A DNA stretch of 47,278 nucleotides from Oscillospiraceae bacterium (GTDB lineage: Bacteria; Bacillota; Clostridia; Oscillospirales; CAG-272). The notes below the pieces were generated by a model. That model had not been told where the DNA came from, did not search any database, and saw only the letters and a list, made by a program, of their open reading frames with translations. The translations under genes and the position numbers were made by a program. The DNA lies in assembly GCA_015064555.1 (NCBI GenBank), contig SVRZ01000019.1:1-47278 (forward strand). Reading direction: 5' to 3'. Positions 2,422-17,335 of this stretch are shown here, piece after piece (the first letter of the stretch is position 1; the number at the start of each line of letters is the position of its first letter).

Positions 2422-5400
2422 TCAGAAATGATTATAATATACTGTTGCGTTTATTATTGCATCGTTTTCCTTTGTGTTGATCTGCATCTTTTTCCAATCA
2501 TTCACGCTACCGCCGTAATAAACGGTATTAAGATCATCGCAATATGCGAAGGCATATGCACCGATGGACCCCAAGGATTCATGAATGAAGATGTATTTGA
2601 GTGAAATGCAATTATAGAAGGTGTACATACCGAGACTTTTAACACCTGCGGGAATGGTTATCTCCTGAAGTGACGAGCATTCCCGGAATGCCGCTTCTCC
2701 AATGTAGGTAACGGTGCTCGGAAGAACTATCTCATTCAGTGACGAGCATCCTCGGAATGCCGCTTCTCCGATGTAGGTAACTGTGCTCGGAAGAGCTATC
2801 TCCTTCAGTGATGAGCATCCCTCAAATGCCGATCTTTTAATATGGGTTACACCGTTTGGTACCGTAATACTTTCGATCCGGGCACAGCCGTAAAAGGCGG
2901 CGGAGCCGATAGAGGTAGTGCTGTCCGGAATGTCCATGCTTTTGAGCCATCTGCAGTTATAGAAAGCATAATCTCCTATCTCTGTGAGTCCCTCGGAGAA
3001 GGTTATGTTACTAAGGCCCTCGTATCCGTAAAAGACGTAATCGTTGAGCTTGGATATAGTTGTAGGAACGGTGACATTCGTTACACGGTTGCCGTGCAGG
3101 TTAAGATTATCTGCCGTTGATAAGGGATTGGAGAACGAATCAACAAAGTAAATACCGAGCCATTTTTCGATGGAGGTTATATTTACGTTGACCAGCTCGT
3201 CGCATTCAAAGAATGCCATGCTTCCTATGTAGGTAAGGCTATCGGGGATGGTAACGTCTGTAAGATACAGGCAGAAATAGAATGTATTGTCGGGAATTCG
3301 TGTAATATCATCGGGGATAGTGATGGAGGTCAGTCCGGAAGATGAGAATATACCGGTGCCGAGCTTTTCGAGGCCGTTCGGCAGGTTGATGCTCTTAAGT
3401 GACGAGCAGTAAGCGAATGCGCGCGTACCGATTTCGCTCAGGCTGCTTGCAAAGACTACTTCAGAAAGATTTTCGCATCCAAAGAAGGCGCAGTCGCCAA
3501 TTGCGGTAACGCCGTCCGAAAGCGTAATTTTCGTTACAGTATGGATCTCATAAAATGCATAAGGATAGATCTCATATGTGCTTCCGTTGCAGTCGCTTGG
3601 GAGAGTTACAACGCTGTCATTTCCCGTATAGTACAACAGATAGCTTTTGCTTCCGCTTATATAGAACAGATAATCACCGACATTATTTACTGTCACATCG
3701 GGATTGTTTATCTCCTTTGCATATTTTGCGATATATCCGTGATCGGTAGCTCCGGGAGTCAGATTCAGCTTGGAGTTGTTTGTTATCTTAACTAATCTGT
3801 AGCATTCCGAAAATGCGGTTTCGCGTATCTCGGTGAGAGTTTCCGGAATGGTTATCGATATAAGGCTTGCGCAGCCAAGGAATGCTCCCGTGTCTATAAC
3901 CTCGGCATCGGTGATAGTAACAGACACTAAGGAAGAGGGAACGGTAATGCCGTTTTTGAAATAATCGACCGCGCCGAAAATATAGCCGAAATGAGTGTTC
4001 TTTTCAGCATTCGGTGCTGAACCGATGAAGGGAATTGTCAGCTCGGTAAGGCCGGTGCATCCCTCTAAAGCTCCCTTGCCGATGGAGGTCAGAGAGGAGG
4101 GAAGAGTGAGATTCGTGATCGATGTGCAGTTTTTAAATGCTCCTGCATAGATAATATCGCCGCCCGTAACCGTTACGTGGTTGAGGGATGACGGGATATT
4201 CTTAGCGCCGGAGGATGAGGATATTCCGAATATACATCCGAAATAGGTGTCTTTTGTATTATTTATTCCTAAGCCTACAAATGGGATGGATATTGACTCA
4301 AGCGAAGAGCATTCGGCAAGCGCAGAGCTTCCGATTGTGGCAACACTGTCGGGAATTATGATCTCCTTAAGCTTATCAATCCCTTTGAAAGCCCGCATCT
4401 TTATTTGCTGAACGCCGCTTTCAATGCTTATATTAAGGATTCCTTTACAGTTTCCAAAGGCATCCTCTCCTATATAAGCAACGCTTCCGGGAACAGAAAC
4501 ACTTTCGATCGAAGTGCACTTGTAAAATGCATAGTCGCTTATATATGCGGTGCCGCTCGGGATAATGAGATCTGTCAGAAGCTCACCGTTAAGATAGAGT
4601 TTTTTGGCAAAATACAGCGGATTGGAATACGTGTCGGTGAAAATGATCTCGCACCAGGAGGAAAGATCATTTATCTCCACGCGCTGAAGATAGACTGAGT
4701 TTGCAAAGGCACACTCTCCGATCGCCGTGACCGCATCGGGGATCGTGACAGACACAATATTGAGATTCCCGGAGAATGCATAGTCATGTATTCTGTAGTC
4801 CTCGCCGTTATAGCTTTCGGGAAGAATAAGATCTACGTTATCGCCAACGTATCCGATAAGATAATTTTCATCCCCCGAATCAAAGAAGCGGTAGCCATCC
4901 CTGATTTCGATCAGACTCTCACCGGTGTGAACCAGCTTCGCATATGCGGCAACACCTCCGTAATCATCTCCTCCGGCTATAATTTTAAGGTCTGAGAGAT
5001 TTATGACCTCGATAAGACGCTTGCAGAGCAGAAAGGCATCACGATCGATAGAAACAACGTTTTTGGGGATAACGATGCTTGAAAGCATCATACATCCCGA
5101 AAATGCATGATCGCCTATAGCAGTCACGCCTTTCGGGATAACTATATTTTTAAGCTGCTCGCAACTGTCGAATGCATAGTCTCCGATGCTCGTTGCCTCG
5201 GGGGGGAGTATGATCTCTTCGAGGCTTGTACAATCGCTGAACGCATTGTTGGGTACCATACTTCCTTTTAAAACGGTTATGCTTTTTAAGGAGGGCGGAA
5301 GATATGAATTAATTTCCTGCGAATCGATCACAGTGAAGAAGTACCCGATACTATACGATGTGGCGTGTAGTTCATTCTCGCCTATGAAGGGTACTGTAAG

Positions 5401-6843
5401 CGAGGCGAGCGAGGCGCAGCCTCCGAGTATATTTTCCCCGATATGAGAAACGCTCTGCGGAATACTCAGTGAGGTAAGCGAGGTGCAGTTGTAAAAGGCG
5501 CCCTCACCTATATAGCCGACACTTGCGGGGATATTTATAGATCTGAGGTGGTCTATTCCGTCAATAGAATATTCTCCGATCCGTTCGGTAGAGTCGGAAA
5601 GCGTAAGCGTATCGCTCTTATCGCCCGATGCGTATCTTAAAAGAGTCTTGCCGTCCTTTGTGTAAAGGCTTCCTCCAACAGATGCGTATTCGGTGTTATC
5701 CTTGCTGACTGTAATCTCGGTGAGTGAAGAGCATCCGCCAAAAGCACTTTCGCCTATGTAAGTGACTGCCTTGGATAATGAGAATGAGGCGAGTGAAGAA
5801 CAGCCGAAAAATGCATTTTTTCCGATTGAATAAACGCTGTCAGGGACAGATACAAAGCTGAGGTTATCGCAATTTTCAAAAGCGCCTTCTGCGATTCCCA
5901 TAGTGTTTTTTCTGAGAGTGATATCGGTATACCCTCTTTCGGACCCTATTGCCCATTTATCAACGTAATAAACACCGTCTTCTAGAAAAGGGAGCTTTGT
6001 ACAGTCCTTGAACAGATTTTTCTGTAGGGTGGTGATATTCTTTCCTATCGTGAGCTTTGAGAGTGCGGTACAGCCATCAAAAGCATTATCTGCAATAGCC
6101 GTGACCGGCAGACCGTCATCCAGCTTGTCGGGGATAGTAGCCTCTCTCAATCCCGTCACCGCACGGACAAGGGTGTAGGATTTTCCGTCGGTGTTGATCT
6201 TATACACTAAAGTGGGATTTCCCGTATTTATGAGTTGGTCGATAGAGGTGGATCCGTATATTCTGTATACTTTTGTGGGATCCGATCTGTCGCCTGCCGT
6301 CAGGTTGAGAGAGAATGGAACCTCGCCTCCGCTGACGGGGAGCAATCTGAGAATAACTCTGACCGATTTCATAGCGCCCACCTCGGAGCGGAGAGAAAAT
6401 CTGGTGCTGAGTGTTGTTCCGTTCGTTTGTTCGTATTCCTCGGTGTCAGAGGTGGGAGCATCCTCGATGGTTATATCAAGGACACCTCTTCCCGGGAAGA
6501 AGGTATCAAAGCATATATATGAGCCGTCATCCATATCTTGCAGAAGCGTATAGGAAAAATCAACTATCATATAGCCGATCTCTCCGTTTTTGAATACAAT
6601 GTCCTGCGTTATATCGCTATCGCTGAATTCACCGTAATTATATTCCGATTCGGTGAGATAGCCTGCGCTGAATTCATTTATTTCAATATCGCTCTGATCT
6701 CTTAAGGTAGGCGCACCACCGGGATTGTTATCCGTGCTGTCGCCTCCGTCTTCGTTGTTTTTATCTTTACAAGATGAGAGGGTTAGAATGAGTGATGTGA
6801 TGAGCAAAATGACAACAAATATTTGCTTAAATGTCTTTTTCAT
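2422..6843 (-). CDS. Giant BspA-like LRR lipoprotein, 1473 aa
   Basis: Lipoprotein signal with LTLSSC (Cys25), an acidic/glycine linker, the shared N-terminal domain (about 45-210, motif INEFSAGYLTESEYNYGEFS), then a very long type-5 LRR solenoid to about residue 1430 and the cap VYYGGSVNDW. Three non-LRR modules recur between repeat blocks: a W-x-I-x-F...SNPL...LYLNG segment, a HFGYIFGA segment after IPFIG, and a segment ending YLIGYVGDN..LPESYNG before the next repeats. The solenoid is therefore a mosaic of duplicated cassettes. AAGGAG six bases before the ATG supports the start. It is separated by 37 nt from the upstream gene and 34 nt from the downstream gene. A surface adhesion or ligand-binding role is inferred from the family; no enzymatic motif was seen. 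Confidence 0.88.
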   Translation of the reverse strand: MKKTFKQIFVVILLITSLILTLSSCKDKNNEDGGDSTDNNPGGAPTLRDQSDIEINEFSAGYLTESEYNYGEFSDSDITQDIVFKNGEIGYMIVDFSYTLLQDMDDGSYICFDTFFPGRGVLDITIEDAPTSDTEEYEQTNGTTLSTRFSLRSEVGAMKSVRVILRLLPVSGGEVPFSLNLTAGDRSDPTKVYRIYGSTSIDQLINTGNPTLVYKINTDGKSYTLVRAVTGLREATIPDKLDDGLPVTAIADNAFDGCTALSKLTIGKNITTLQKNLFKDCTKLPFLEDGVYYVDKWAIGSERGYTDITLRKNTMGIAEGAFENCDNLSFVSVPDSVYSIGKNAFFGCSSLASFSLSKAVTYIGESAFGGCSSLTEITVSKDNTEYASVGGSLYTKDGKTLLRYASGDKSDTLTLSDSTERIGEYSIDGIDHLRSINIPASVGYIGEGAFYNCTSLTSLSIPQSVSHIGENILGGCASLASLTVPFIGENELHATSYSIGYFFTVIDSQEINSYLPPSLKSITVLKGSMVPNNAFSDCTSLEEIILPPEATSIGDYAFDSCEQLKNIVIPKGVTAIGDHAFSGCMMLSSIVIPKNVVSIDRDAFLLCKRLIEVINLSDLKIIAGGDDYGGVAAYAKLVHTGESLIEIRDGYRFFDSGDENYLIGYVGDNVDLILPESYNGEDYRIHDYAFSGNLNIVSVTIPDAVTAIGECAFANSVYLQRVEINDLSSWCEIIFTDTYSNPLYFAKKLYLNGELLTDLIIPSGTAYISDYAFYKCTSIESVSVPGSVAYIGEDAFGNCKGILNISIESGVQQIKMRAFKGIDKLKEIIIPDSVATIGSSALAECSSLESISIPFVGLGINNTKDTYFGCIFGISSSSGAKNIPSSLNHVTVTGGDIIYAGAFKNCTSITNLTLPSSLTSIGKGALEGCTGLTELTIPFIGSAPNAEKNTHFGYIFGAVDYFKNGITVPSSLVSVTITDAEVIDTGAFLGCASLISITIPETLTEIRETAFSECYRLVKITNNSKLNLTPGATDHGYIAKYAKEINNPDVTVNNVGDYLFYISGSKSYLLYYTGNDSVVTLPSDCNGSTYEIYPYAFYEIHTVTKITLSDGVTAIGDCAFFGCENLSEVVFASSLSEIGTRAFAYCSSLKSINLPNGLEKLGTGIFSSSGLTSITIPDDITRIPDNTFYFCLYLTDVTIPDSLTYIGSMAFFECDELVNVNITSIEKWLGIYFVDSFSNPLSTADNLNLHGNRVTNVTVPTTISKLNDYVFYGYEGLSNITFSEGLTEIGDYAFYNCRWLKSMDIPDSTTSIGSAAFYGCARIESITVPNGVTHIKRSAFEGCSSLKEIALPSTVTYIGEAAFRGCSSLNEIVLPSTVTYIGEAAFRECSSLQEITIPAGVKSLGMYTFYNCISLKYIFIHESLGSIGAYAFAYCDDLNTVYYGGSVNDWKKMQINTKENDAIINATVYYNHF

Positions 6844-6880: not shown

Positions 6881-9655
6881 TTATGTATAATGCTTGGTTG
6901 ATGCTACAAAAGACTCGTTCCAGGTGTCAACGGTATAATTGATTTCCGACTCCGTGCCCTCGAAATACACATCGCTAAGCGACTGACAGCCGTAGAAGGA
7001 GCCGTAGCCTATATCGGCAAGCGTTTTCGGAAGGGTGAGCTCGGTGAGGCTTGAGCAGTTTGCAAATGCATACATTTCAATGGATCGGAGACCGCTTCCC
7101 GCCTCTACCGATTTGAGCTTTGAGCAGCCGTTGAAGGCATAGCCGGGAATGACGGTTATACCATCTCCGAGTACAACGCCGGTGAGAGCCGTGCATCCCT
7201 CAAATGCACCGAGCCCGAGATATCTGACACTATCGGGTATAACTATTTCGGTAAGTGTCGAGCATCCCTTGAATGCGCCTCTGGCGATACTGACGAGCGT
7301 GCTTGGCAGTATCACCTGCTTGCCTGCGGATAAGGAATAAATTCCCAGAACCTCAAGGCTGTCCAAATGACTTGGAACGGTTATTACGTCCGAGATGGTC
7401 TTGCAGTCAACTATATAAGCACCGCCGTCGTATGCAACGTACGTAAAGTTTGGGTTTGTGAGAACAAGGTTGTGCTTGAAATTGACACCGGCGACCGAAT
7501 TGCTCCAATAGCTTTCCCATCCATCGGGCTTTGCCGCCGCTTCGCAGCAAACGTTCAGCGCTTTGCATCCGTAAAAGGCGTATTTGTATATCTCCTTGAC
7601 CGAGTAGGGAATTATTATCTCTGTAAGAGAGGTGCACTCATTGAATGCATATTTTTCAACGGTATAGAGATTTCTGCTTAGCACGGCATCCGTAAGAGAG
7701 CTGCATCCCGAGAATGTATATTCCTTGAGTGTTTCGACACGATCGGGGATTTTTATTGAGGCGAGCGAGGTGCATCCTTCGAATGCACGTGAGCCGACGG
7801 TTATTACCGCATCGGGAATTGCCAATTTCGAAAGAGAGGTGCATCCCTTGAATGCAGCATAGCCTATAGACGTGGCATCCGACGGGAGGACCAGGCTTTC
7901 AAGAGCGGTGCAATTCATAAAGAGCTCGTCGCTGATCGCTGTGATGCCGCTCGGTAATACCATCGCGGTAATAGAGGAGCATCCGCTGAATGCTCCCGGC
8001 TGCACTTCTGTAGCATTGTCCGAAAGCTCAATGCTTTTCAAGCCACTGCAGTTTTGGAAAAGATACATAGGAATAACCGTCAATTTATCGGGAAGCTTTA
8101 TGGCGGTAAGTGCCGTGCATTCCGAAAAAGCACACGTGCCGATATAAGAGACCGCATCTGAGATCGCTATTTCGGAAAGGGACTCGCAGCGCTCGAATGC
8201 GTAGTTTCCTATAGACGTGACCGACTGTGGGATCACTATGCTTTCCAGTGACGTGCATCCGGAGAAGAGATAGAAGGGAAGCGAGTTGACCGAGGCGGGG
8301 ATATTGATTTCGGTGAGAGCCGAGCAGTCCTTGAAGGCTCCGTAATCTATGTAGGTCACAGTATCGGGGATCTTTACGGATGTGATCTGTGCACAGCCTG
8401 CGAATGCATAGCTTTTAATGGCTGTCGTACCATTTAAAATGACCGTTTTCAGACCTTGCGGCAGGTGCTCTCGGTTGCTTTCATAGCTCTCCGCCCCGAA
8501 AATATAGCCGAAATGCGTGTTTTTCTCGGCATTTCCCGAGCCGATAACGGAGGTGGTGATGCGCTCGATCGAATCGCATTTATAGAATGCGGCTTTGCCT
8601 ACAGAAACGACCGATTCGGGAATATACACCTCGGTAAGAGAGGTTGCCGAGGCAAATGCAAGCTCTGCAATATGCGTAGTGCTGCCGTTTATTGTGAAGC
8701 TATTATCCGGTCTTGCCGGAGAATATCGGATCAGAGTCTTACCGTCCTTTGTATAAAGGCTTTCGTCTATAACCGTATAAGCGGTGTTTTCTCCATCCAC
8801 CTTTATTTCACAGAGCGAGGTGCAGTCCGAAAGCTCCGACTCGTTCTCGAAGCTTGTGATATTTTTTCCGATAGTCAGCCTTTCGAGCTCAGACCTGTTA
8901 TTAAATGCCCCGTTCAGAATACCGGTCACGGGAAGGTTGTCCTTCAATCTGTCGGGAATAACTATCTCGGAGCTCGTCTTGCTTACCGAATAAACAGAAT
9001 ATCCAAGGGCATCATCGTTTATTCTATAGGTAATATCGGAGTTTATCTTGGTGATGTTCGATTTTTGGCTTGTAGCTCCGCAGAGCTTGATATTGTCCGA
9101 GGCGGTAAGATCGAAGGTCAGCGAAACCGTGCCCGAGCCGAGCGGAAGAACACGGACGGCAACACGCATCGATTTTTGACTATCCTTTTTCTCGGGCATA
9201 GAAAATTCAGCAGTAAGGTAGATGCCCGAATTATTCTTCGTTTCCTTTATGGCGGAGGTCGGTGCCTCCTGTAGCGTTATGTCAATAATACCTCTTGCCT
9301 CGGAAACTGCTCCGAAGATTATGGATGCATCCTCGGGAATATCCTTCAATATCGTGTATGAGAAATCGATTATTGCGTAAACGCTTCCGCCCTTGTCGAG
9401 AGCGGCGGTATCTTCAATGCTTTCGTCCTCGAAATTACCCTCGTTATAGTTATCCTCGGTGAGATAGCCGACGGTGAAGCTGTCTATATTTATATCGTTC
9501 TCCTCGGGTGTTGTATTCTCCGGGATATCCCCCGTATCGTCGTCGTTCGAGGTATCGGAATCCCTGTTGCCGCACGAGGATAAGATCAGCGATGCACAGA
9601 TAAGAAGTGCCGCGAGGAGAAAACGGAAAAGAATATGTAATGATCTGTTCTGCAT
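6881..9655 (-). CDS. BspA-like LRR lipoprotein, 924 aa, first gene of the cluster
   Basis: The open frame extends upstream to 9718, but that part overlaps the structured RNA. The ATG at 9655 has AAAGGA nine bases before it and begins a classic lipoprotein signal (ALLICASLILSSC, Cys28 from this start). The shared N-terminal domain follows (INIDSFTVGYLTEDNYNEGN), then type-5 LRRs from about residue 215 to the end, with one HFGYIFGA cassette and one longer interruption near residue 700 (KPDGWESYWSNS). The C-terminal cap is YFEGTESEINYTVDTW. The start codon is only 22 nt from the T8 run that ends the tRNA-like RNA, too close for an independent promoter between them. Expression therefore probably depends on read-through of that RNA or on a promoter inside it. 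Confidence 0.88.
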   Translation of the reverse strand: MQNRSLHILFRFLLAALLICASLILSSCGNRDSDTSNDDDTGDIPENTTPEENDINIDSFTVGYLTEDNYNEGNFEDESIEDTAALDKGGSVYAIIDFSYTILKDIPEDASIIFGAVSEARGIIDITLQEAPTSAIKETKNNSGIYLTAEFSMPEKKDSQKSMRVAVRVLPLGSGTVSLTFDLTASDNIKLCGATSQKSNITKINSDITYRINDDALGYSVYSVSKTSSEIVIPDRLKDNLPVTGILNGAFNNRSELERLTIGKNITSFENESELSDCTSLCEIKVDGENTAYTVIDESLYTKDGKTLIRYSPARPDNSFTINGSTTHIAELAFASATSLTEVYIPESVVSVGKAAFYKCDSIERITTSVIGSGNAEKNTHFGYIFGAESYESNREHLPQGLKTVILNGTTAIKSYAFAGCAQITSVKIPDTVTYIDYGAFKDCSALTEINIPASVNSLPFYLFSGCTSLESIVIPQSVTSIGNYAFERCESLSEIAISDAVSYIGTCAFSECTALTAIKLPDKLTVIPMYLFQNCSGLKSIELSDNATEVQPGAFSGCSSITAMVLPSGITAISDELFMNCTALESLVLPSDATSIGYAAFKGCTSLSKLAIPDAVITVGSRAFEGCTSLASIKIPDRVETLKEYTFSGCSSLTDAVLSRNLYTVEKYAFNECTSLTEIIIPYSVKEIYKYAFYGCKALNVCCEAAAKPDGWESYWSNSVAGVNFKHNLVLTNPNFTYVAYDGGAYIVDCKTISDVITVPSHLDSLEVLGIYSLSAGKQVILPSTLVSIARGAFKGCSTLTEIVIPDSVRYLGLGAFEGCTALTGVVLGDGITVIPGYAFNGCSKLKSVEAGSGLRSIEMYAFANCSSLTELTLPKTLADIGYGSFYGCQSLSDVYFEGTESEINYTVDTWNESFVASTKHYT

Positions 9656-9677: not shown

Positions 9678-9827
9678 AAAAAAAATGACGGCAGACCGGT
9701 ATCGTCGGATTCATACAATGCCGGTGCTCTACCGAACTGAGCTACATCGCTTGCGCGAGAGGAGGATTTGAACCTCCGACCTCCGGCTTATCCAAAATGA
9801 AGTAAATCCGACTAGCTATCTGCCGTC
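9678..9827 (-). ncRNA. Permuted tRNA-like RNA, Y RNA (YrlA)-like, ending in a U tract
   Basis: In transcript order the elements are: outer helix arm GACGGCAGA (9827-9819); inner helix arm GTCGGATT (9812-9805); anticodon-type arm GCCGG (9787-9783); AGGTC as a five-base variable region; T arm GGAGG-TTCAAAT-CCTCC (9777-9761); a hairpin TCGC-GCAA-GCGA (9758-9747) in place of the acceptor ends; TA; D arm GCTC-AGTTCGGTA-GAGC (9742-9726); then the return arms CCGGC (9724-9720), AATCCGAC (9711-9704) and TCTGCCGTC (9695-9687), A, and T8. All helices pair perfectly, and the D loop GG and T loop TTCAAAT are the canonical elbow residues. The 3' tRNA half precedes the 5' half, and there is no free acceptor or CCA. 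This matches the known plan of YrlA-type bacterial Y RNAs, which bind Ro60 (Rsr) through the end-closing stem. No rsr gene is in the window. Confidence 0.8.
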
Positions 9828-9893
9828 CCGCGATATGTTGACGCTCTTTCTTATCAGGAAGTGAAGTAAGCACCAATAGCTGCGGTTTACAAT

Positions 9894-9922
9894 ATTATAT
9901 ATTATTTTCGGGTGAAAATCAA
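9894..9922 (-). promoter_or_regulatory. Sigma-A promoter for the tRNA-like RNA and LRR lipoprotein unit
   Basis: On the minus strand TTGATT (9922-9917) and TATAAT (9899-9894) are separated by exactly 17 bases. Transcription would begin near 9887, about 60 nt before the first helix of the tRNA-like RNA. No later promoter of comparable quality was seen before the first lipoprotein gene. Confidence 0.75.
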
Positions 9923-14234: not shown

Positions 14235-17200
14235 TTATTTCACCGGAGTAATTACATAACCGTCAGCCCAATTCACTATTTCACCGTTTTCGCCGTAGAA
14301 CCAGTAGTCGTTCAACCATATTTCAGGCTCGGACTCGCTGTAATAATACACACGGGCATTATCGAAGTAATTGTCATTTGTAGGCTTGCCAACGGAGAAC
14401 CATTCCTTCTGAGAGCCGCAGTAATATATACTTGGTACCGGAGTTAATCCATAGAAGGCGTAATCCTCAATATTAGTCACACTCGTAGGCATAACTATAT
14501 TCTCTATTGTTTTATCGGAGTCGAAAGCATAGCTTAAGATATTGTAATTGCGACCGTTATAGCTTTCGGGAAGTACGAGTAGACTATCGTCTCCGAGATA
14601 GGCGATAAGATAGACGTTTCCGCTTGTATTGCCATCACTGTCTTCATAGAAAAGAAATTCGTTGACATGTTTGATCTTGCTCTCATATTTATCAAAGTCG
14701 GACGAGATTACGCTGAGCGCGTTTTCGGCAATGCCGCCGTGATTCGCGTATCCCGCTCTTATATTGAGTGACGAATGATTAACTATCTCAACGATCTTGT
14801 TGCATCCGATGAATGCATCATTGGAGATGTGGTTCACCGATTCACCGATAACGACTCTTACAAGGGAGAAGCAATGATAGAATGCAGAGATTTCTATACC
14901 GGTAACACTATTTCCGATAACTACATCGGTAAGATTGGGGCAGTAGGAAAAAGTGCTTTCGGGAATAGCGGTAATGCCGTTTCCGATATGAGCGCTCAGC
15001 ATATTAATGCATCCGTTGAAGGCTCTGACTCCGAGGGTTGTAACCGAGTCCGGTATAACTATGCTGCGAAGGCTTACACATGCACTGAATGCTCCGGTCT
15101 TTATAGATTCCACACCGTTTGCTATGCTTACGCTTTTGAGATCCTTGCAATCCGCAAACGCATAAGAACCTATCTCATAAACCGTACCGGGAATGGAAAA
15201 GCTCTCGATATCGCTCATTCCTCGGAATGCGTACTGATATATGCTGTATCCGGTATCGTTGTAGAACGTAGGAAGCACAAGCTCTGTAGCCTCGCCGGCA
15301 TATCCTAAAAGATAATTGACTCCGATATCGCGGTTGTAGAAGAGGTAGCCGTCCACCTCGTCGATCGCGCTTCCACCCATGTGAACATCCTTGGCATAAT
15401 AAGCTATATAGCCGTTAGAGTAGTCCCCGCAGGATATGCTAAGCGGAGAATTGTTGACAACCTCAATGAGCTTTTCGCAGTTCCAGAACGCATATTCTGC
15501 AATTGTGGTAACGTTATCTCCGAGAGTAACACTTATAAGGTCAAGACATCCGGAGAATGCCTGATTTCCTATTTCGATGACGTCATCGCCGATAACTAAT
15601 TTTCGGAGAGAATCGTAGCCGTAGAAGGCTCCGTTGTTGATCTTTGTCACGTCCTCCGGAATAACAAGCTCGGTAACGCGATCTTTGTTAAGATATAAAT
15701 TTTCTGCATAGAAAAGAGGGTTACTTTCATTCAGCTTGAATGTAATGCCGCACCATGCCGCAATATCGCTGATGTGTACATTTTCGAGAGCTTCGCATCC
15801 CTCAAATGCATATTCTCCGACATCTGAAAGACGGTTACCGATAAACAAGTCGGTCATAGCTTTGCATCCGGAGAAAGCTCGTTCGCCGATCACCTTGACA
15901 TCGTCCGGTAGCGTCACACTTCGAAGCGACGTGCATCCGACGAAGGTGTAAGACCTTATTGTTTCGATCTTACCGGGAATTATAAGATCTGTCACGAGCT
16001 CACCGTTCAGATAAAGCTCGGCTCCGAAATGAAGGGGATTACTCGTATGATTTGCGAAGATGATCTCGCACCATGCCGAAGCGTCTGAAATATATACTCT
16101 TGAAATCTGAGTATCGGTAAATGCATATGCATCTATCGCGGTAATACTTGAGGGAATCGTTAGTTCGTGGAGTGAATACATGCTGTTGAAAGCATACATT
16201 CCGATATTCGTTATACCCCAGCCTATATGCACGGAGTTCACATTGCTGCCGGAGAAGGCATAATCTGCTATAGCCTTGACGGGTAGTCCGTCGTGTATCG
16301 AAGGAATAACTACCACAGTGTCGGTACAGCTTCCGATACCCGTAACCGTGTAATAAAGTCCGGAGGAGCTGAGCGAATATTCAAGACCGTAGCTCGGCTG
16401 AAGAGCTGTCTGTATCTGCTCTTCGTCGCCGTTGTCCATTTCGTCATCGCTCTTGAATACTTTATCAAAGGGAATTTTGTCAATAAAGTCCATAACGGCG
16501 ATATATACGGGATTGTCCTTGAGGGGATTCTCGCGATCGGATGTACCGTCACCGTTGATATCCTCGTCACCCTTATTGAGAATAGCGTCAAGACCTTCCC
16601 AATCCTCGGGGATATACCGTATACCCACTCCGATCCCAACACCTACCAAAGCAATAAGCACCATAAATATCTTGGCCCTGCGCTTTGCCTTTATGAAGAT
16701 GAAGAGGAGTGCTATTGCTCCTGCCGCTATCAGAAGGATCTTCGGCGAGAAATTGTTCTCAAATCCACCGGGCATAAGTGCGAATGCCAAAGCGAGTACA
16801 GCCGCGACAACGATAACGGTTATCAGTACGGCCTTGACCTTGCCGCTTGCCTTTTTGAAGATGATGATAAGCGCGATGACCGCGGCGATTATCAGAAGCA
16901 CGCCGGGAGAGAATACATCCGAGATCCTGTTCGAATTGACCACGGTCAGAATCAGCAGAACGAATCCGATTACGGTAAGAGCGGGTACAAGGATCCTGGT
17001 AATAAGCTTTTTATTCCTCAGGGCGAAGAATTCCACCAGAATAATACCCAATGCTATAAGAGTTGCAGGCGTAAGCCCGTCGATGTCCACGCCGCTGTCA
17101 GCAACAGCCGCGGCGACAATGCCTCTTGTTATCAGTGCGGCAAATACGAAGCCGATAGTCTTCAGCAGTCTTTTTTTATTTTTCGAGCCCGATTTTATGA

Positions 17201-17258
17201 ATATGATCAGTCCTATGATTGCTAGTATGATCACACCTGTGATTGATGACCCCGTCAT
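14235..17258 (-). CDS. LRR protein with eight-helix membrane anchor, 1007 aa
   Basis: An upstream ATG at 17273 lies inside the Shine-Dalgarno site; GGAGG seven bases before the ATG at 17258 fixes the start there. Residues 1-213 hold eight hydrophobic helices. Lysine/arginine-rich loops (SGSKNKKR, RNKK, FKKASGK, KAKRRAK) alternate with acidic or neutral loops, so the positive-inside rule puts both ends outside. Residues 231-243 contain a calcium-type loop (D233-x-N-x-D237-G-x-x-D241). From about 315 to 980 come type-5 LRRs with the same inserted cassettes as the 1473-residue lipoprotein (WCEIIF..SNPL..LYLNGELVTDLIIP and YLIAYLGDD..LPESYNG). It lacks the lipobox and the shared N-terminal domain. 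The family suggests a surface ligand-binding role; the helical part has no recognised enzyme motif. Confidence 0.85.
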   Translation of the reverse strand: MTGSSITGVIILAIIGLIIFIKSGSKNKKRLLKTIGFVFAALITRGIVAAAVADSGVDIDGLTPATLIALGIILVEFFALRNKKLITRILVPALTVIGFVLLILTVVNSNRISDVFSPGVLLIIAAVIALIIIFKKASGKVKAVLITVIVVAAVLALAFALMPGGFENNFSPKILLIAAGAIALLFIFIKAKRRAKIFMVLIALVGVGIGVGIRYIPEDWEGLDAILNKGDEDINGDGTSDRENPLKDNPVYIAVMDFIDKIPFDKVFKSDDEMDNGDEEQIQTALQPSYGLEYSLSSSGLYYTVTGIGSCTDTVVVIPSIHDGLPVKAIADYAFSGSNVNSVHIGWGITNIGMYAFNSMYSLHELTIPSSITAIDAYAFTDTQISRVYISDASAWCEIIFANHTSNPLHFGAELYLNGELVTDLIIPGKIETIRSYTFVGCTSLRSVTLPDDVKVIGERAFSGCKAMTDLFIGNRLSDVGEYAFEGCEALENVHISDIAAWCGITFKLNESNPLFYAENLYLNKDRVTELVIPEDVTKINNGAFYGYDSLRKLVIGDDVIEIGNQAFSGCLDLISVTLGDNVTTIAEYAFWNCEKLIEVVNNSPLSISCGDYSNGYIAYYAKDVHMGGSAIDEVDGYLFYNRDIGVNYLLGYAGEATELVLPTFYNDTGYSIYQYAFRGMSDIESFSIPGTVYEIGSYAFADCKDLKSVSIANGVESIKTGAFSACVSLRSIVIPDSVTTLGVRAFNGCINMLSAHIGNGITAIPESTFSYCPNLTDVVIGNSVTGIEISAFYHCFSLVRVVIGESVNHISNDAFIGCNKIVEIVNHSSLNIRAGYANHGGIAENALSVISSDFDKYESKIKHVNEFLFYEDSDGNTSGNVYLIAYLGDDSLLVLPESYNGRNYNILSYAFDSDKTIENIVMPTSVTNIEDYAFYGLTPVPSIYYCGSQKEWFSVGKPTNDNYFDNARVYYYSESEPEIWLNDYWFYGENGEIVNWADGYVITPVK

Positions 17259-17335
17259 ATTCGGTCCTCCCATTATGTATTCGGCTGACGTAGCCGTGCA
17301 CTTGTGTTTTGTCGAATAAACACGATAATAAACTC

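Follow-up and report, generated by a model that had tools for sequence, protein, structure and literature searches.

We estimate at roughly three in five the probability that a ribonucleoprotein (RNP) built on a divergent Ro-like protein has its Y-like scaffold RNAs, two of them, encoded at this locus. As judged from sequence, the likeliest system is an RNP of the Ro/Y-like kind in which the pairing of protein and RNA is new. One of the two RNAs contains a circularly permuted tRNA-like module, and this RNA is real. The finding is larger than the preliminary description suggested: that RNA is one of a wider Y-like class coupled to a Ro-like/TerD-like protein, with members in certain gut bacteria, further bacteria and phages. 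RNPs of the Ro/Y kind are already known and this protein-RNA pairing is apparently undescribed; we found no account of the RNA-protein system among the titles and abstract openings listed from the open-licence literature under MXAN_6230/SCO0854, TROVE with TerD, or permuted tRNA with Y RNA. Throughout, the window is the whole stretch of DNA analysed, 47,278 nucleotides, which is also the whole of contig C10 of the draft genome (G000).

Two RNAs with a common stem element

In the preliminary description a Y-like stem was topped by a permuted tRNA mimic, and every helix named there was found where it had been drawn (Table 1). The long RNA is 141 nt in length; its single-sequence fold has an energy of -57.4 kcal/mol (z -3.33), and none of 200 shuffled sequences was equally stable. 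The acceptor-like hairpin of the window RNA consists of four Watson-Crick pairs, one mismatch and one G-U pair, and across the long RNAs recovered by pattern the corresponding stems are 4-8 bp with various caps. Rfam at its own thresholds gave no match in the window, and a simple terminator scan, which allowed loops of 3-8 only, gave no site at the RNA locus.

Table 1. Features of the RNA locus and the adjoining genes, in window coordinates.
Feature	Position	Strand	Basis
Long Y-like RNA with circularly permuted tRNA-like module in apical loop of stem element	9687..9827	minus	sequence, fold, covariation
Long RNA outer stem, 9 bp	9827-9819/9695-9687	minus	sequence
Long RNA internal loop UAGCUA, between outer and inner stems		minus	sequence
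Long RNA inner stem, 8 bp, then UACUUC	9812-9805/9711-9704	minus	sequence
Anticodon-like stem GCCGG/CCGGC	9787-9783/9724-9720	minus	sequence
Variable region AGGTC, 5 nt, between anticodon-like stem and T arm		minus	sequence
T arm GGAGG-TTCAAAT-CCTCC of tRNA-like module	9761..9777	minus	sequence, Rfam YrlA match, pattern, covariation
Acceptor-like hairpin, GCAA cap, without free 3' end or CCA	9745..9760	minus	sequence, pattern, covariation
TA linker between acceptor-like hairpin and D arm		minus	sequence
D arm GCTC...GG...GAGC of tRNA-like module	9726..9742	minus	sequence, Rfam YrlA match, covariation
A and eight T directly 3' of outer stem, terminator-like end of RNA unit	9678..9686	minus	sequence
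Short Y-like RNA, plain apical loop: outer stem CCGC/GCGG, AGCUA, 8-bp inner stem, UACUUC	9828..9885	minus	alignment, covariance model R1
Promoter-like site: -35 TTGATT, 17-nt spacer, -10 TATAAT	9894..9922	minus	consensus scan, 10/12 matches
BspA-type LRR gene downstream of the RNAs, first of run	about 6881..9655	minus	ORF list; Pfam LRR_5 'BspA type', E 1.5e-129
Second BspA-type LRR gene	2422..6843	minus	ORF list; kind by eye from translation
Third BspA-type LRR gene, paralogue for gauging contig gap	765..2387	minus	kind by eye
Start of fourth BspA-type LRR gene, cut by contig end	2..331	minus	comparison with paralogue

Related genomes had been proposed as the place where missing covariation would come to light, and there the helices covary. 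In an alignment of 11 long RNAs from eight genomes, with RNA ends picked by hand, 91.5% of cells pair, 21 of the 37 pairs show double-sided change, and such changes are present in all six helices; the covariation score was 0.410, against 0.062-0.124 when the alignment was slid and 0.158 when it was shuffled. The eight genomes hold 13 long RNAs (one each in the window, G037, G011, G048 and G330, two each in G039 and G026, and four in G020), from which one each from G039 and G020 were omitted; the second G039 RNA was checked for the tRNA-like module only. A broken or ordinary tRNA gene was ruled out by the covariation of the permuted fold together with ARAGORN, which reported no tRNA anywhere in the window, and the earlier judgement that neither chance nor a broken tRNA gene accounts for the RNA is thereby borne out.

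A second, short RNA, absent from the preliminary description, abuts the 5' side of the long RNA. It starts 8-9 nt downstream of the promoter-like site, which is suggestive only, because four such sites were found in the 551-base region where 1.4 were expected. The short and long RNAs have in common a stem element made of an outer stem, AGCUA, an 8-bp inner stem and UACUUC; the inner stem of the long RNA is this same element, and the long RNA is therefore a standard member of the class except for its apical loop, which contains the tRNA-like module. Among 17 short RNAs, the inner stem is paired in 99.3% of cells, and covariation in the 17-row alignment reached 0.904 compared with at most 0.205 when slid. 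The window RNAs have this plan with its covariation, as captured in covariance model R1, with which the short RNA (9885-9828) scored 47.5 bits (E 2.8e-7), that RNA being itself an R1 training row. Run over 517 kb from 52 sources, R1 gave 31 matches at E ≤0.022, of which 17 are training rows; 30 lie in front of the protein gene described below and the remaining one is the window's own. One phage locus (L044), absent from the training rows, accounted for four of the matches. In the 69 genus genomes R1 matched four, all among the seven with the protein; it missed G026, G039 and G048, where the RNAs seen were all of the long form.

The RNA-linked protein and its genomic setting

Downstream of the RNA in G020, G026, G037 and G039 lies a gene for a protein of ~680 aa, which was found in seven of the 69 genus genomes: these four, G011, G048 and the window's own genome, where it is on contig C26. 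All seven have the long RNA, and in the six other than G000 it lies upstream of the protein gene, within about 260 nt. The protein is rare, occurring in 2 of 325 family genomes and 3 of 394 order genomes, with this genome counted in both; the protein gene is preceded by two short RNAs and a long one in a genome of the same family (G330), and by a single short RNA in one of the same order (G396).

In the window genome the RNAs and the protein gene fall on separate contigs, with about 15 kb between them under the following join. Contig C26 begins inside an LRR gene, which is followed by two more and then by the protein gene, all in the same direction (G000:C26:5315-7363). The paralogue in the window at 765-2387 contains the end sequences of both C10 and C26, 13 bases apart. 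We infer from these sequences that C10 and C26 are neighbours, with LRR genes lying between the RNA genes and the protein gene; the join could be wrong, because LRR genes are repeated in this genome. BspA-type LRR genes were also seen in the window at 14235-17273, and those of C26 lie at L037:83-5254. For the first gene of the run, the ATG of MQNRS was chosen as the start. An LRR protein query returned only loci that were later used as controls. Inspection of the 700 nt preceding the protein gene on C26 revealed no copy of the RNA. A PNPase gene (L037:12312-14465, on C26) lies on the opposite strand about 5 kb past the protein gene, an observation that concerns this genome's locus only.

The RNA-linked protein probably joins a divergent TROVE/Ro domain to a TerD-like domain. 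None of the seven genus proteins had a significant Pfam match, and Pfam TROVE (PF05731) matched no family member scanned. Profile comparison with TROVE by hhalign scored 43.5, while 200 shuffles reached at most 30.4; the hhalign probability was only 42%, and 4.8% with smaller alignments. The similarity of the helical domain to TROVE/Ro60/Rsr is collinear and includes the HP and LRNL segments, and some distant members are without one such segment (LpeD has no histidine, WXIN no LRNL). Foldseek gave no match at E 0.001, with no Ro chain among the 50 best matches listed, and a model of the N-terminal 434 residues returned ERAP/HEAT-type structures, again with no Ro chain among the 50 best listed; the fold-comparison Z for the Ro-like domain is of a size that helical repeats can reach by chance. 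Ro proteins have a C-terminal vWA domain. The RNA-linked protein, in contrast, has no vWA and ends in a TerD-like beta domain, which differs from TerD of tellurium resistance in being fused to a Ro-like domain and in having no Pfam TerD match.

All five proteins scanned matched NF041916, the MXAN_6230/SCO0854 family RING protein model, at 95-106 bits, far below the curated family threshold of 600 bits. Residues about 284-624 of the RNA-linked protein align to model positions 386-728, and the one Streptomyces locus opened (L066, a training row of model R2 below) has a hairpin RNA upstream of its gene. Unlike the Streptomyces protein, which has a RING domain, the window genome's protein had none that we could find. 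By these profile matches the RNA-linked protein is distantly related to the MXAN_6230/SCO0854 proteins.

Distant and phage relatives

Relatives of the protein were found on seven IMG/VR contigs, one of which (L045) is a copy of another (L044). On each of the seven, several short hairpins precede the protein gene and follow one plan, in which an outer stem leads through (A)GCUA to an 8-bp inner stem, then UACUU and a variable loop, with an asymmetric internal loop on the 3' side. A wider alignment took in 35 viral loci, including the close ones and some copies, and a phylum search found the protein in 3 of 299 genomes, namely this one, G1035 and G1073. Two further searches gave protein matches in phages and plasmids, with loci opened for 4 of 10 records in one and 2 of 25 in the other; a query with the LpeD protein found LpeD itself only, and one with the MT835874 protein found nothing. 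The Ro-like/TerD-like gene of three phage contigs is divided, at a common position, into a pair of overlapping ORFs (L043:5983-8048, L044:5983-8141 and L046:5983-8132); the second of the pair has an ATG and a Shine-Dalgarno-like sequence of its own, and the arrangement is possibly a two-subunit version. Just upstream of the RNA array on L043 is a retron-type reverse transcriptase gene (4205-5335; PADLOC RT_II-A, E 1.1e-43), and further upstream are genes that by eye resemble a ThiF/JAB/ubiquitin-like cassette.

The distant hairpins typically have GGCUA or GGCUC, an inner stem, and UCCUUC or UUUCAUU. Model R1 failed on this distant family, finding only L107 and L061 (E 0.6-2.5), and a second model, R2, was therefore built from the hand-collected hairpins of 11 loci (18 RNAs; covariation 0.694 compared with at most 0.186 slid). 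At E ≤0.01, R2 matched 20 of 23 family loci outside the training set, phages included, which do not amount to 23 independent events because close pairs remain (for example L090/L092, and L121/L122 from one genome). It matched none of 18 control loci at E up to 1. The loci L086-L116 supplied 24 of their 31 to the R2 search, with L091, L093-L095, L101, L102 and L108 omitted as apparent copies. Outside the cut were L061 (0.025) and L098 (0.058); L114, a locus that starts 45 nt before the match, had none. Matches at E ≤0.1 lie on the strand of the gene, on either side of it (the best match is downstream in L064, L065 and L115), and those on the opposite strand were at E 0.14 (L088) and E 0.99 (L061). 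R2 matched neither the window nor L037, and among 149 phylum genomes it matched two, G1035 and G1073, with four RNAs adjoining the protein genes. In one hairpin copy (L107:1474-1538) the outer stem reaches 23 bp, a length far above that of the remaining members seen.

Permuted tRNA-like modules were also present in three RNAs of two distant viral contigs, L087 and L099. Two of these are on L087 (about 98-235 and 249-381), with CCA encoded after the acceptor stem and before the linker; they scored 40.2 and 30.4 bits with the Rfam YrlA model, below its gathering score of 69 bits, and the same two modules occur on L102. Having CCA, unlike the window's module, they might be processed to a tRNA-like end. 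The third (L099, about 2512-2633) has a UUCG cap and was seen by eye and fold only, being missed by the tRNA-like pattern and by Rfam YrlA at E 0.1. Two tRNA-like genes lie just upstream of the RNA array on that contig (L099:1462-2041), one scoring 42.6 bits as tRNA-Sec against a threshold of 47.

From these comparisons we think it rather probable that bacteria and phages share an undescribed branch of Ro/Y-type RNPs. Its core would be a Ro-like domain fused to a TerD-like domain, with RING added in Streptomyces and a split over two genes in certain phages. Plain hairpins would make up its tandem RNA arrays, and tRNA mimics would occur among the RNAs of two or more distant parts of the family, on one phage contig with an encoded CCA.

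Alternative readings and the candidate particle

The preliminary description had called the RNA YrlA-type, and a search with the Rfam model (RF02553) leaves that assignment half standing. Under relaxed settings, model positions 23-85, which cover the tRNA-like module only, aligned to 9785-9722 with 36.9 bits and an E value of 8.9e-7; the module is thus YrlA-like, but the score is below the threshold of 69 bits, which was reached in none of the 69 genus genomes. As in YrlA, T arm, acceptor-like hairpin and D arm stand in permuted order at the far end of a stem; in outline this stem, which has two parts and an asymmetric internal loop between them, resembles that of YrlA, and the RNA's length lies within the 90-150 nt given for YrlA in the available text of PMC8394870. 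The window RNA differs in having AGCUA/8-bp/UACUUC where the YrlA consensus has AUGC.u/7-bp/CUAc, in standing in tandem with a plain-loop RNA, and in a partner gene that is not TROVE by Pfam. At E 0.01, 43 of the 69 genus genomes had some YrlA match, the strong loci being few and the weak ones many, and 9 of 14 control genomes matched weakly as well. The 14 matches near 27 bits that were opened (L007-L020) were all adjacent ordinary tRNA genes, in which T arm and D arm imitate the model; below these, only the G011 and G048 loci were opened, and a match on C36 of the window genome was given a pattern search only, which found nothing. A 39.9-bit match in a genome without the protein (G013) proved by eye to be a degenerate tRNA-Asn/tRNA-Lys repeat with inserted hairpins and no Y stem. 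These pair repeats (L029:1-700, on G013:C13) have the hairpins inserted at the anticodon region and lie beside an intact tRNA-Lys at a contig end; they may stem from faulty assembly or represent a family of insertions.

It is distinctly unlikely that the RNA is a true YrlA whose partner, a classical Rsr, is encoded in the missing ~18% of the draft genome. The E value on the module speaks for this reading, as does an RNA in G037 to which the whole YrlA model aligns (1-114, 47.1 bits). No TROVE/Rsr gene was found in the draft (2.07 Mb), an absence that is not final because the genome is 82% complete. One relative, G330, does have a TROVE gene, but it is the sole carrier among nine genomes with the linked protein; none was found in the other eight, one of them 98% complete, and the neighbour of the RNA in six other genus genomes is a different protein. 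The earlier expectation that the stem is bound by Rsr, with rsr in the genome, thus found no support, and the better reading is a YrlA-like RNA of a distinct Ro-like RNP. In permuted tRNA genes the anticodon loop is 7 nt long, and the acceptor end with CCA is either encoded or obtainable by processing. A gene of this type, whose stems join the halves and whose transcript is spliced or cleaved into a working tRNA, would fit the order of T arm, acceptor and D arm, the joined ends and the CCA before the linker in the two RNAs of phage contig L087. It is very improbable here: the window's acceptor stem is GCAA-capped, mismatched and without CCA, the stem is long and extended with no 7-nt anticodon loop, and the stem element also occurs in RNAs that have no tRNA module. 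In a third alternative, the RNA would serve in conflict between host and phage as a decoy or sensor, titrating or detecting nucleases that attack tRNA or enzymes that modify it, and the protein would be the effector. The family's presence on many phage contigs (35 loci, some copies) and the placing of TerD proteins in stress and conflict systems in the available text of PMC7824862 agree with this, but most RNAs were seen without a tRNA module, four proteins scanned had no PADLOC family match, and by eye the ORF lists had no other gene recurring beside the protein gene across genomes and phages. We consider this role unlikely.

Under the preferred reading of a Ro/Y-like RNP, the helical domain of the protein, probably a TROVE-ring homologue, would grip the stem element around AGCUA/UACUUC, which we infer to be the protein-binding site. 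The available text of PMC8394870 describes YrlA as tethering Rsr by its stem and binding PNPase by its tRNA-like domain to form the Rsr-YrlA-PNPase machine (RYPER), and as a substrate of tRNA-modifying enzymes. By analogy, the tRNA-like module may be a handle through which the long RNA tethers PNPase or another tRNA-binding partner, which would commit the particle, under stress, to the surveillance or decay of RNA. The plain-loop RNAs would be gates or storage forms. Where Ro has its vWA domain this protein has the TerD-like domain, a possible sensor of a stress ligand.

Ro60 and Y RNAs have been studied through TROVE proteins, and in the records seen the proteins of this family are annotated only as hypothetical, 'cytoplasmic', TerD-family or RING-domain. 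If a second lineage with the same plan exists, it would give the MXAN_6230/SCO0854 family a role and connect RNA surveillance with the TerD-like domain. A Y RNA that mimics tRNA would in that case be an old or a recurrent feature of two protein lineages, rather than a speciality of Rsr, and the purpose of the mimic would become testable in a second system, including its members from non-pathogenic Streptomyces.
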